A stretch of 27,513 bases of DNA from a virus. The first letter of the stretch is position 1. Every line of letters starts with the position of its first letter. The notes under the pieces are model-generated. The model had not been told where the DNA came from. It saw nothing but the letters and a program-made list of their open reading frames with translations, and did no database searches. A program made the translations under genes and the position numbers. The stretch is from IMG/VR virus record IMGVR_UViG_3300025692_000001, positions 1 to 27,513 of that record. One strand, given 5' to 3'. Of the stretch, positions 4,917-12,821 are shown in pieces.

Positions 4917-5201
4917 ATGAGTGACAAGACCGAAAAGACCGACAAGACCGACAACACCAAGCTCGTCGACCGCGACGATGCCCTCGACCTGGGCGTCCCG
5001 ATGCTGCAGGGTGACCCGTCGGAGCCGCAAGGTCCCGAGGATGCGTTGGGTGACGGCCCCAAGAGGGGCGATTACCGCGACCGCATCGGACCGTCGAACT
5101 ACCATCCCCACACCGGCGCGGAGCCGCAGCGGCCCAAGGCCGACGACATCGGCGACGCCAAAGGCCTCAAGGGCGGCGTAGAGACGGCCAAGAAGGACTG
5201 A
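4917..5201 (+). CDS. Small charged protein bracketed by hairpins
   Basis: A 94-residue, very hydrophilic protein rich in Asp, Lys, Gly and Pro, with no predicted hydrophobic core, Cys or membrane segment. It starts with a run of Lys/Thr/Asp repeats and is probably largely disordered. GGAG lies about 8 nt before the ATG. It sits between the capsid and connector genes, a common slot for head-decoration or head-associated proteins, but no family was recognised. The hairpins on either side mean its mRNA level may be set independently of its neighbours. Confidence 0.75.
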   Translation: MSDKTEKTDKTDNTKLVDRDDALDLGVPMLQGDPSEPQGPEDALGDGPKRGDYRDRIGPSNYHPHTGAEPQRPKADDIGDAKGLKGGVETAKKD

Positions 5202-5281: not shown

Positions 5282-5716
5282 ATGACCTTCGTGTCCCTCG
5301 ACGAGTTCCAGACCCGCTACGAGAACACCATCCCGACCGCCGATGAGGTGCGGGTCGGCGCTCTCCTTGACGACGCTTGCGCCCAAGCCGCAGACATCAC
5401 GGGGACCGCATACGCAGCCGGCAACGAGATCCCCGGCACGATCACGGCGACGGTCTGCAACGCCGTCCGCCGCGCCTATGAGAACCCCATGGGGCTCAGC
5501 GGGGAGACCATCGGCGATTACGGCTGGCGCGGCGCGTCGGCGGGCAACGATTCCGGCGTGTACTTCAGCCCCAAAGAGGAACGCATCATGCGCCGGGCGG
5601 CCGGCAAGTCGAGCGTCGGGACGCTGGAACTCCAGGTCATGCTGCCGAACACCATCGGCACCACATACGGCACGCCCGTCACGGTGGACGGCGTCACGTA
5701 CTACATCCGGCCGTGA
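5282..5716 (+). CDS. Head-to-tail connector (adaptor) protein
   Basis: A 144-residue protein with the layout of the gp15/gp6-like adaptors that dock under the portal: SLDEFQTRYENTIP at the start, a helical bundle with DDACAQAADITG and a VCNAVRRAYENPMGL helix, then a Gly-rich loop and a KEERIMRRAAGKSSVG segment, the usual connector C-terminal signature. A C-terminal beta extension (TIGTTYGTPVTVDGVTYYIRP) is longer than in many relatives. ATG 5282 has AGGAG 9 nt upstream; an ATG at 5277 is out of frame. It overlaps the next gene by 4 nt. Confidence 0.85.
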   Translation: MTFVSLDEFQTRYENTIPTADEVRVGALLDDACAQAADITGTAYAAGNEIPGTITATVCNAVRRAYENPMGLSGETIGDYGWRGASAGNDSGVYFSPKEERIMRRAAGKSSVGTLELQVMLPNTIGTTYGTPVTVDGVTYYIRP

Positions 5717-6027
5717 AGACGCTCCCCCGCAGGCTGCGCAAAGACTCGATAACGGTCGAAGCCTACTCAGGTGAGGGCGGCGACGGCTCCATCTATGACG
5801 ATCCCGTCACCGTGCTCGGCAAGGTCGCCTACATGCGCCAGTTGGTACGCGACGCCGCGGGCGCAGAGACCGTCTCTGAAGTCACCGCATACGTCCACCC
5901 CGACGACGCGGAGCCGTTCGTGACCGGGGCGCGAGTCGTGATTGACGGCAGCCCCACTTACGTCATCACAGCAGGCCCACAGGGGCGCCCCGGCGAGGCC
6001 GTCCAGGTCAAGGTGACGTGCCAATGA
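5713..6027 (+). CDS. Head closure / stopper protein
   Basis: This 104-residue beta-rich protein starts at GTG within the connector stop (GTGA overlap), with no separate ribosome site. A small SH3-like barrel pattern (SITVEAYSG, GKVAYMRQLV, VRVVIDGSPTYVITAG-like strands) fits SPP1 gp16/HK97 gp7-type stoppers that close the filled head. Its position right after the adaptor is the expected one. Assignment rests on gene order and fold pattern. Confidence 0.7.
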   Translation: MKTLPRRLRKDSITVEAYSGEGGDGSIYDDPVTVLGKVAYMRQLVRDAAGAETVSEVTAYVHPDDAEPFVTGARVVIDGSPTYVITAGPQGRPGEAVQVKVTCQ

Positions 6028-6047
6028 CAACTCAGGAGGCCTGACCG

Positions 6048-7334
6048 ATGCCTTGGTACAAGCTGCCGCACACCGAGATAGTGATGTGGTTCCAGTATGA
6101 GATGGACTTGGAGCCCGCAGGCACGCCGCCCCCGCCGGCGCTACCCCTCGCTACCTGCGGCATGCTCAACGTGTCCGAGTTCGGCGCGACTGGCAGCGGC
6201 TGGCACGACGACACTACGCACATTCAGGCCGCCCTAGACGCTTGTGCGTCTGAGGGCGGCACTGTTGTCGCTCCTCCGGGTCGCTTCCTTATCTCCGCCC
6301 CCATCCTCGTCCCCTCCGGCGTCAACCTCTGGGGTGCGGGCATGGACTTCTCGGCCAGCCTGCAGGGGACCACGTTCCTCTGCGGTACCGCCGACGCCAC
6401 CATCCGCTTCGGCGAACTCGGAATAGCCAACGGGAACACCGGCGGCCTCTCGGGGAACTTCAACATCGACGGCGACGGGGCGGCCGACGTCGGCCTCTCT
6501 ATCGGCCTCTCCGTGAGTCGCTCCTATCAGTCGATTCAGTCGCACGCTGCTGCCGTAGGCGTGCTTGTTGAGCAGGCGCAGAACAACTCTTTCGCCAACA
6601 TCCAAGCCGACACCTCGTCGGTCAGCGGCTTCATTCTCGACAAGGGCTGCGCCGCCAACGTATTCACCAAATGCAACGTCAGCGGATACGGTGCGCACGG
6701 AATCCATATCCGGCAGACGGGCGACAACGAGGCCGGGCTCCCCGTGGTCCCTTCACACAACACCTTCTACGGGAACATCTTCGAGTGGGGACTCGTCACC
6801 GCCGATGCCGTGCTCTATCACGGCGCGGGGCTGTCCAACGCATTCGTCGACTCGCAGTTCTCCCCCGGCAACGACTGCCCGAACACGCCGGTCGTCAAGA
6901 TGGTCTACGACGAAGGCGTGGAGCAGTGCGTAAATCTCAGGCTGGTGCGCGGCATCGTCAATGGCGACTCCAACGTTGTCCCACTGGTCGACGGCATTGA
7001 CGTGGGCCCGAACTGCATGATGCAACTCGCGGGCGTGAACATCCACAACTGCCGTTACGCCTTCATCCCCGGAGCGGGGTCGGTGATCGAGAGCGACTCG
7101 CCGCTGTACTCGGGACACTACGAACTGGCCGCCGACCTCAGCGCCGCCAACGCCGCCATCACGAAGACGATGTACCTCACTGGTGGGGCCAACGTGCTCG
7201 GCTGCGTGGGGACTCCAGAGGGTGCCGTTGTTGCCAATCCAGGTAGCCTCTGCCTGCGCAGCGACGGCGGCGCGGGCACCAGCCTATACGTCAAGCAGTC
7301 GGGCGCCGGCAACACCGGCTGGGTCGGAAAGTGA
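6048..7334 (+). CDS. Pectate-lyase-like beta-helix protein (tailspike or depolymerase candidate)
   Basis: A 428-residue protein with AGGAGG 9 nt before the ATG. Residues 1-35 form a distinct N-terminal segment that may anchor it. From about residue 40, NVSEFGATGSGWHDDTTHIQ and GGTVVAPPGRFLI are the classic start of pectate-lyase-3/right-handed beta-helix proteins, followed by Asn/Gly-rich coils. The C-terminal ~45 residues (PGSLCLRSDGGAGTSLYVK and a GNTGWVGK end) match a short module often found at the ends of phage fibres. Such proteins bind or cleave surface polysaccharide; substrate and catalytic residues cannot be read here. The location between stopper and gp10-like genes is abnormal for a tailspike. 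Confidence 0.82.
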   Translation: MPWYKLPHTEIVMWFQYEMDLEPAGTPPPPALPLATCGMLNVSEFGATGSGWHDDTTHIQAALDACASEGGTVVAPPGRFLISAPILVPSGVNLWGAGMDFSASLQGTTFLCGTADATIRFGELGIANGNTGGLSGNFNIDGDGAADVGLSIGLSVSRSYQSIQSHAAAVGVLVEQAQNNSFANIQADTSSVSGFILDKGCAANVFTKCNVSGYGAHGIHIRQTGDNEAGLPVVPSHNTFYGNIFEWGLVTADAVLYHGAGLSNAFVDSQFSPGNDCPNTPVVKMVYDEGVEQCVNLRLVRGIVNGDSNVVPLVDGIDVGPNCMMQLAGVNIHNCRYAFIPGAGSVIESDSPLYSGHYELAADLSAANAAITKTMYLTGGANVLGCVGTPEGAVVANPGSLCLRSDGGAGTSLYVKQSGAGNTGWVGK

Positions 7335-7723
7335 GCACGTCTAGCATCGTCGTGCGCGCCGACTACACTGCCGCGGTCAAGGCGAAGATGCACGAGGCCG
7401 GCGGCGCGGCGCTCAAAGAAGCGGCCGACGAACTGCTGAGCGTCGCTAGCGAGACGGTGCCCGTGGCCCCTGTCGGCGGCGGCCTCCTCCGCGACTCCGG
7501 CAAGGCTGAGGTCGACGAGGCTGGACTGTGCGCCCAGGTCGGCTACACCACGGGGCCGTCGGGACGCCCCGGCGGTGGCAGCATCGCAGTCGTTGTGCAT
7601 GAGGACACGACGGCCAGCCACCACGGCGGAGGCCACGCCAAGTGGCTGGAGATGGCCGCCAAGGAAACAGCCAAGCGTCTCGGCATCGCTATCGGCGTGA
7701 GCATCAAAGGCAGGATGGGATGA
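7331..7723 (+). CDS. HK97 gp10-like neck/tail-completion protein
   Basis: The 130-residue protein begins at GTG overlapping the beta-helix stop (GTGA). It shows the gp10-like pattern: an N-terminal helix with alternating charges (KAKMHEAGGAALKEAADELL), a TVPVAPVGGGLLRDSGKAEV segment corresponding to the P-x-x-T-G-x-L-x-x-S-motif region, then VHEDTTASHHGGGHAKWLE, where related proteins have a YAxxVEFG/H..G.A.KFL block. These proteins join the head-to-tail interface or tail completion complex. The extra His/Gly cluster is notable. Confidence 0.78.
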   Translation: MSTSSIVVRADYTAAVKAKMHEAGGAALKEAADELLSVASETVPVAPVGGGLLRDSGKAEVDEAGLCAQVGYTTGPSGRPGGGSIAVVVHEDTTASHHGGGHAKWLEMAAKETAKRLGIAIGVSIKGRMG

Positions 7724-8154
7724 TATCGCGCGCCCTCGCCAAGTACCTCACCGTGGTACAGATTGTCACCTACTCCACGTCATCCGGTGGCGACTGCTTC
7801 CTCGAGCACCTGCCGGACGCGCCGGACGCCGCCGACATGATTCTCAGCACGGGCGGCAACCCGACGCCGGCCGCGGCCACCTGGGGCTACGACGAGCCTA
7901 CCGTGCAGCTCATGGTGCGCGGCGCGCCGAATGACCCCGTGACGCCGCAGACGCGCGCCGTGGCCATCTACGGCGCACTCCAGGGGCTGCGCGGCGTGAC
8001 TCTTGACGCGGGCGGGCCGGACGAGGTCTACCTCATCGTCTGCGAGTCGCTCCAGACGGCCCCCGTGAACATCGGCACCGACCTCAAGAACCGCTACCGC
8101 TACACGCTCAACTTCGCCCTTCATATCCGGTCACTCACCACACATCGAGACTAG
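7720..8154 (+). CDS. Tail terminator protein (minor capsid 3-like)
   Basis: A 144-residue protein starting at ATG overlapping the previous stop (ATGA). Features shared with tail terminators: an N-terminal helix (ISRALAKYL), a central VQLMVRGAPNDPVTPQTRAVAIY segment where the strand VQV.VRG.....A...A..I is expected, a GVTLDAG loop and a final NRYRYTLNFALHIR strand. The hexameric terminator caps the tail tube and binds the head. It sits just before the tail tube gene, the standard position. An upstream extension to 7642 overlaps the gp10-like gene and is rejected. Confidence 0.8.
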   Translation: MISRALAKYLTVVQIVTYSTSSGGDCFLEHLPDAPDAADMILSTGGNPTPAAATWGYDEPTVQLMVRGAPNDPVTPQTRAVAIYGALQGLRGVTLDAGGPDEVYLIVCESLQTAPVNIGTDLKNRYRYTLNFALHIRSLTTHRD

Positions 8155-11746: not shown

Positions 11747-12145
11747 ATGCCTTGCACCGAATACCGCGCCAATCAGATCGCCGTTGCGGAGATGGGCGGC
11801 ACGCCGTTCCAGGGGCCGGCCACAATCTATCTGCGGCTCTGCAGTGACACGCCGACCAAGTCCGTCGCCGGGACGCCGGTCGTGTATACCGGGTACGCCC
11901 CCGTCGCATGGACGGCGGCGAACTGGGACAGCGACGACGTTGGCAACCTGGTGAACGGCGCCAACGTCGTCACGTTCCCGACGCCGACCGGAGGCGATGA
12001 CTGGGCCTGGTACGTCGAGGCATGGAGCGCAGCCAGCGCCGGGACGCGCTTCTGGTACGAGGAGCTGGCCGATCCGATTCACATCACCGCCGACTTGCCG
12101 GCCGTGGAGTTCCCGGTGGGGCAGTTGCACTTCGGGGTGGTGTAA
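11747..12145 (+). CDS. Phage tail fibre-like protein (gp80-type fold)
   Basis: A 132-residue protein with AAGGAG 6 nt before the ATG. It resembles a small tail protein family of actinophages: N-terminal helix (EYRANQIAVAEMGG), a strand with LRLCSDTPTKSVAG, a TGYAPVAW segment, a NGANVVTFPTPTGG block, a W/Y strand stating the state of the sample-like sandwich (AWYVEAWSAASAG), and a final strand VEFPVGQLHFGVV. Likely a beta-sandwich at the tail tip. The following gene is one frame away and lacks a canonical start just after this stop, so a +1 fusion is possible. Confidence 0.75.
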   Translation: MPCTEYRANQIAVAEMGGTPFQGPATIYLRLCSDTPTKSVAGTPVVYTGYAPVAWTAANWDSDDVGNLVNGANVVTFPTPTGGDDWAWYVEAWSAASAGTRFWYEELADPIHITADLPAVEFPVGQLHFGVV

Positions 12146-12146
12146 C

Positions 12147-12821
12147 ATCCTCGAAGCTCACGTCACGGTCAGCGTTGCCGACCCATACCCGCTGCCGCGA
12201 CTCTACTACGAATCGCCCGTCGTCCCGGCGGCTGCGCTCGAAGCGCACGTCACCGTCAGCGTCGCCGACCCCTACCCGTTGCCGCGACTCTCTTACGTGG
12301 TCCCGGCGGCTGCGCTCGAAGCGCACGTCACCGTCCGCGTCGCCACGAAGCGGGCGCGCCTATCCTACGTCGGCGCTCCCGCACTGCCCGCCACCGATGA
12401 CCTTGGCTGGACGGCCCCCGACGTTACCGCCCCGGCGCTGCAGGGGCTTACGGTGACGCTCGGCGGCCACAACGTGAACCGCGCCCTCATCGAAGACCTC
12501 ACCATCGAACTGTCCGACTGCGGCGGGCCTATCAGCGCGACGATGACGCTGGCGCGGGACGTGCGCCTCGCCGCCACGCCGATGCTGTCGCAGCTCGTGG
12601 TGACGTACCTGGGCCAGCGCCTCTTCAAGGGTCGCCTCGAAGCGCGCGGCCTCGACCTCGGCAGCGACATGGCGAACACGCTGACGTTCACCGGCCCCAT
12701 CAAGCAACTCGGCGACCATCGCGCCTTCCGCCGCGTGTACGTCGACTCCGACCTCGACAACTGGCGCACCGACCAGGGGCCGAATACGAGCGCCAACGTC
12801 TTCGAGGTGACGGCATCGTGA
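12147..12821 (+). CDS. Minor tail / hub-like protein, N-terminal part, start unresolved
   Basis: The frame is clearly coding to 12821 (about 225 residues) but has no ATG, GTG or TTG between the upstream stop and its repeats. The first canonical options are TTG 12279 and GTG 12297, both without a ribosome site and both cutting into the repeat. ATC at 12147 has GGGGTGG six nt upstream, so a rare ATC start, +1 slippage from the preceding gene, or a sequence error are all possible. ATG 11997 would overlap the previous gene by 149 nt and reads as shadow. After the repeats, LQGLTVTLGGHNVNRALIED and strands up to DSDLDNWRTDQGPNTSAN look like the first domain of tail hub proteins. Confidence 0.65.
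   Translation: MLEAHVTVSVADPYPLPRLYYESPVVPAAALEAHVTVSVADPYPLPRLSYVVPAAALEAHVTVRVATKRARLSYVGAPALPATDDLGWTAPDVTAPALQGLTVTLGGHNVNRALIEDLTIELSDCGGPISATMTLARDVRLAATPMLSQLVVTYLGQRLFKGRLEARGLDLGSDMANTLTFTGPIKQLGDHRAFRRVYVDSDLDNWRTDQGPNTSANVFEVTAS
12150..12380 (+). repeat. Coding tandem repeat, three units of 78-87 nt
   Basis: Units start at CTC in 12150, 12237 and 12315. They encode LEAHVTVSVADPYPLPRL plus a linker ending VVPAAA; the third is diverged and cut short. The first is nine nt longer than the second. Nucleotide identity between units 1 and 2 is high, so the duplication is fairly recent. Confidence 0.85.

Follow-up and report, generated by a model that had tools for sequence, protein, structure and literature searches.

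The window analysed here is the whole of an IMG/VR record (IMGVR_UViG_3300025692_000001; 27,513 bases) from an uncultured virus of bacteria. Its head-neck genes include an adaptor, a stopper, a gene for a protein of 428 amino acids, an HK97-gp10-like gene and a terminator gene, followed by the genes for the major tail protein, a probable chaperone and the tape measure (Table 1). The DNA of the capsid region resembles that of Streptomyces and Gordonia phages, suggesting that the host is probably an actinobacterium. In the interval from capsid to adaptor genes the window also encodes a 94-amino-acid acidic low-complexity protein (4917-5198), a homologue of which was found in L004 only among the relatives searched.

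Table 1. Features of the head-neck region of the window and, in the last four lines, example loci of the variable gene that follows the major tail protein gene in Gordonia and Rhodococcus phages
Feature	Location	Strand	Evidence
Head-tail adaptor	5282..5716	+	phrog_137, 2.9e-18
Head-tail stopper	5713..6027	+	phrog_3881, 2.9e-15
Shine-Dalgarno AGGAGG	6034..6039	+	kept upstream of the small gene of relatives
Fusion gene, 428 aa (candidate docking peptide and linker, then pectate-lyase-like beta-helix and fibre-end module)	6048..7334	+	
Codons 1-27, candidate docking peptide MPWYKLPHTEIVMWFQYEMDLEPAGTP	6048..6128	+	also starts the small gene (46-93 aa) that fills this slot in 11 related contigs
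Short proline-rich linker, residues 28-39	6129..6164	+	sequence inspection
PF12708 pectate-lyase-like N-cap and first beta-helix turns, residues 40-222	6165..6713	+	Pfam match
Probable further beta-helix, residues 223-372	6714..7163	+	inferred; only a weak PF13229 match (167-243), low-confidence model
C-terminal fibre/spike end module, ending in GSLCLRSDGGAGTSLYVKQSGAGNTGWVGK	7164..7331	+	matches to fibre/spike ends
GTGA stop/start overlap with gp10-like gene	7331..7334	+	sequence
HK97-gp10-like neck protein	7331..7723	+	PF04883 weak; conserved in syntenic relatives
Tail completion/terminator	7720..8154	+	phrog_2595, 2.1e-16
Major tail protein	start 8164		phrog_3884
Variable gene, L059	7001-8362		
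Variable gene, L060	5001-5258		
Variable gene, L066	4001-6421		
Variable gene, L067	4001-5233		

Domain structure of the fusion protein

An earlier note on this DNA had described a 428-residue protein with a pectate-lyase-3 start and a fibre-type C-terminal module, lying between the stopper and gp10-like genes and coupled to the latter by GTGA. Each of these features is confirmed. The reading frame is open over all 428 codons, and residues 40-222 match PF12708 (Pect-lyase_RHGA_epim, formerly Pectate_lyase_3) with 1.9e-13 and 51.1 bits against a curated cut-off of 27, placing the protein in this beta-helix superfamily. The gp10-like neighbour matches PF04883 weakly (0.002; 19.5 bits, below the cut-off of 21.4), but its synteny is conserved. 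PHROG tail-spike families also match the fusion protein (best 2e-12), and so, weakly, do phrog_4775 and phrog_17212, both named 'pre-neck appendage' (residues 37-102; E 0.002-0.004). The AlphaFold2 model, built from a shallow alignment, is of low confidence, with a pLDDT of 45.5; the top PDB matches that Foldseek returns for it are beta-helix enzymes and adhesins, at non-significant E-values of at least 0.01. Among the PDB sequence matches is 2pyg. A signal peptide is not evident.

Residues 373-428 align at about 50-69% identity with the C-terminal parts of proteins from Klebsiella, Acinetobacter, Pseudomonas and Gordonia phages, and the final 42-56 residues are 55-69% identical to fibre and spike termini from many phages. 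A scan of IMG/VR found the module at 66 loci; in about 50 it forms the C-terminus of its own ORF, and 8 of these ORFs have a recognisable pectate-lyase cap motif. Since the module is one found at the C-terminus of fibres and spikes, the window protein ends where such proteins end and is complete. It thus has a fibre/spike-type module at its end, as expected of a tailspike.

The whole fusion protein had no close relative in IMG/VR, and a search for a second copy of the fusion found none, so that it is known from one contig. GC3 is continuous (0.82-0.85) across the stopper, the N-terminal peptide, the pectate-lyase domain and gp10. Chance does not account for a domain fusion that stays in frame over 428 codons and is bounded on both sides by conserved genes of the neck.

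A small gene occupies the same slot in related viruses

Ten related contigs were retrieved with the gp10-like protein as query and one more by pattern and profile scans. All 11 (7 distinct sequences) have a small gene of 46-93 amino acids between stopper and gp10. Its near-invariant N-terminus reads MPWYKLPH..VM.F..M..L.P, and its tail is acidic or charged, proline-rich and disordered-looking, ending near ETEAT. In the window this tail is exchanged in frame for the beta-helix and end module, whereas about the first 27 codons are kept. The Shine-Dalgarno sequence and the opening 24 bases of the gene hardly differ between the window and its relatives, residues past codon 8 are also conserved among the relatives, and the start of gp10 has the same bases as in L011. 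The window peptide fits the family pattern MP[WY]YKLPH..VM.F...L.P, but has drifted (Q16 Y17 versus D16 Q17). The earlier note had proposed searching related phages for the same insertion; the slot is indeed occupied in them, but by the small gene without a spike. Its idea that the neck operon has taken up a moron is supported and can now be made precise: the cassette replaces the tail of a pre-existing small gene.

An exact scan of 2.9 million viral contigs with back-translated MPWYKLPH gave matches in the small-gene family only, and the peptide is absent from every tail-tip gene of the related contigs. Three matches in bacterial genomes (Saprospiraceae, Tahibacter, Fructobacillus) were dismissed as chance ORFs of 8-18 amino acids. 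As a query among cultured phages the 27-residue peptide yielded nothing significant. Nyceirae gp15 and Ewald gp14, disordered proteins encoded in the same slot, were rejected as homologues, having no sequence resemblance on inspection.

Five more distant contigs were added from the terminator alignment. L051, the exception to the stopper/gp10 position, encodes a 64-amino-acid homologue (MPYYKLPH...; 1082-1276) directly upstream of the adaptor, by a small decoration-like gene; its peptide is kept at residue level with synonymous changes. L047, L048 and L050 (L049 maps like L048) have no small gene, and the stopper abuts gp10. The small gene is therefore optional and mobile within the head-neck cluster, and not a core part of the neck. 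In close relatives the block of stopper, gp10 and terminator near-constantly accompanies the peptide. Moreover, the small gene and its flanking neck block were found with two unrelated major capsid proteins (L004, 871-1824, versus L009, 745-1719), indicating that the capsid gene has been swapped. Since the neck block stays with the small gene in both capsid backgrounds, a partner in the neck is favoured over one in the capsid lattice. The pN/pS ratio of codons 1-19, 0.45 compared to 0.37 for the stopper, is derived from few sites and indicates moderate selection.

Tail tip and a second cargo slot

According to the earlier note, a spike gene found in related phages only in the tail-tip cluster would speak against a neck appendage. 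PF12708 is absent from all 17 related contigs, all of them fragments, so that this objection does not arise among them, and an origin of the spike gene in the tail-tip cluster of relatives is accordingly unsupported. The tip of the window does differ from that of two relatives. Two adhesin-like genes that follow the Gp80-like fibre gene (PF23140; 11747-12145 in the window) in L008 and L011 are missing: an F5/8-type C-like domain protein and a 162-amino-acid protein in L008, a disaggregatase-repeat-like protein and a 181-amino-acid protein in L011. Compared to both contigs, about 1.1-1.3 kb are lacking at 12143-12300, directly 3' of the Gp80-like gene. The next tail gene of the window is without its usual start, has no obvious start codon and contains repeats of LEAHVTVSVADPYPLPRL. 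That one genome should have lost a tip adhesin and acquired a neck spike is suggestive, but it is a single case.

A second slot for cargo, flanked by the genes for the major capsid protein and the adaptor, exists in relatives. It holds a 498-amino-acid fibre-like protein in L006 (460-1956), L007 and L029, a 599-amino-acid protein with an Ig-like stretch in L009 (1803-3602) and L010, and genes for a glycosyltransferase, an FkbM methyltransferase and a glucosyltransferase-like protein in L011 (4835-6926). These transferases may alter the surface of the virion. In this lineage, surface-acting cargo is repeatedly found in the head-neck cluster.

A parallel arrangement in Gordonia and Rhodococcus phages

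Gordonia phage Sour gp22 (701 amino acids) combines PF12708 with the same end module as the window protein; the modules are 64% identical over 42 residues, and the DNA is 81% identical over 70 bases. Its gene is flanked by those for the major tail protein and a head-to-tail adaptor. The first 30-40 or so residues of Sour gp22 recur in about 96 records of Gordonia phages (Vividuovirus, Sourvirus, Kroosvirus) and Rhodococcus phages, for example in Angelicage gp24, Rofo gp24 and Nordenberg gp19. In all regions opened the gene directly follows the major tail protein gene or lies a few genes on. The N-terminus may stand alone as a protein of 85 or 159 amino acids (Rofo, MoontowerMania); in other phages it is fused to proteins annotated as deacetylase, glycoside hydrolase, lipase, esterase, hydrolase, GH55 or PF12708 spike. 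The earlier note's statement that tailspikes usually sit after the tape measure hence describes a tendency only, as PF12708, GH55, lipase and deacetylase proteins are encoded before the tape measure in this group.

As in the window family, a short N-terminus occurs with or without swappable cargo upstream of the tape measure. However, the candidate docking sequence of the group, MPYTRPTIVSGVTRATKAFFDNLLDGIDER, differs from that of the window, and its gene adjoins the major tail protein rather than stopper and gp10. The window protein does not have the N-terminus TRPTIVxGVTRATKAFFDNLLDGIDE and has only the PF12708 cap and the end module in common with Sour gp22.

Comparison with known neck appendages

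Lactococcal siphophages of the 936 group bear a neck passage structure (NPS), an optional neck decoration with a conserved N-terminus and a variable C-terminus (PMC6669499). NPS groups D and E end in a beta-helix with HHpred matches to 1gq8 and 2pyg (PMC6669499), the latter also being on the match list of the window protein. NPS have N-termini of about 130-180 residues, BppU-like and followed by coiled coils, in a total of 500-900 amino acids (PMC6669499). In contrast, only about 39 residues of unrelated sequence precede the beta-helix in the window protein. It has neither BppU-like domain nor coiled coil and was rejected as a member of the NPS. Neck decorations of 936 phages tend to exclude other decorations (PMC6669499), a likeness to the window with its two missing tail-tip genes.

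The p12 protein of phi29, a pre-neck appendage, is a trimeric receptor-binding protein (PMC11476376). Like the window candidate it is a beta-helix spike, and its name refers to the neck. But phi29 is a podovirus, the anchor of p12 is unrelated, and the likeness is limited to a generic PF12708 cap, as the weak 'pre-neck appendage' matches reflect. In the Anabaena myophage A-1(L), neck-ring fibres are docked via the N-terminal part of one protein and bear a carbohydrate-binding module at the distal end (PMC10966104). These differ from the window protein in being multi-protein bead-chain fibres of a myovirus, with a much larger N-terminal domain of 125 residues and no beta-helix lyase. Given the beta-helices of the 936 NPS and the neck fibres of A-1(L), the window gene represents no new class.

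Discussion

On balance we favour, with modest confidence, a virion-borne spike that arose by domain grafting and that a short docking peptide attaches to the particle; we infer that the neck is the probable site. A small gene of the neck operon has kept its ribosome site and about its first 27 codons, its tail being replaced by the beta-helix and end module. The N-terminal residues would bind to the assembling head-tail joint, with the portal, adaptor, stopper, gp10-like protein or terminator ring as candidate partners. The beta-helix would trimerise like that of a tailspike and the end module cap its distal tip, so that the neck region of the particle would be ringed by spikes. These might bind polysaccharide on the host surface, perhaps also cleaving it, and thereby help reversible adsorption. 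In relatives, the bare small protein would serve either as an unoccupied dock or as a plain decoration of the neck. The neck-attached appendage of the earlier note is thus plausible, with the retained peptide as candidate tag and the 936 beta-helices as precedent, its support being indirect.

The spike might instead be attached elsewhere on the virion, to the tail tube by the major tail protein, to the tail tip or to the capsid surface, its gene merely lying at a tolerated insertion site. The L051 homologue upstream of the adaptor, beside a decoration-like gene, would accord with this, as would the position after the major tail protein of the comparable variable gene in the Gordonia and Rhodococcus phages opened, and the large adhesin- or enzyme-like genes that relatives insert between capsid and adaptor. 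With two tail-tip genes missing, the spike could also replace a tip adhesin. We nevertheless regard attachment elsewhere as rather unlikely, because the peptide is so constantly paired with the stopper-gp10-terminator block in close relatives and occurs in none of their tail-tip genes.

That the product is no virion component at all but a soluble polysaccharide-degrading moron, made late and released at lysis, appears improbable. Its N-terminus would then represent translation signals or a small non-structural protein, and near-identity of the Shine-Dalgarno sequence and the first 24 bases is what retained initiation signals would leave; yet conservation among relatives extends past codon 8, the protein has no evident signal peptide, and it ends in a module typical of fibre and spike termini. 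Still less credence, in fact very little, is due to an assembly chimera or a degenerate fusion of a neck gene with an unrelated phage fragment. The fusion does come from a single metagenomic contig without a second copy, but both of its joints are in frame, the GTGA coupling is kept, the DNA of the gp10 start matches L011 and GC3 is continuous from stopper through gp10.

Returning to the grafted neck spike, a wider reading is possible, which we put forward tentatively: the peptide of about 27 residues may be a general neck docking tag of this siphovirus lineage to which any surface tool can be fused, and one of several systems of short tags with swappable cargo encoded before the tape measure in actinobacterial phages. 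Comparison has here caught a domain graft, the same small neck gene occurring bare in relatives and fused to a spike in the window. Should the peptide prove to be a docking tag, it would explain how a siphophage can acquire a neck decoration that has no large anchor domain, and would constitute a minimal attachment signal open to testing. The approximately 96 Gordonia and Rhodococcus records provide a parallel system in cultured phages that is experimentally accessible.
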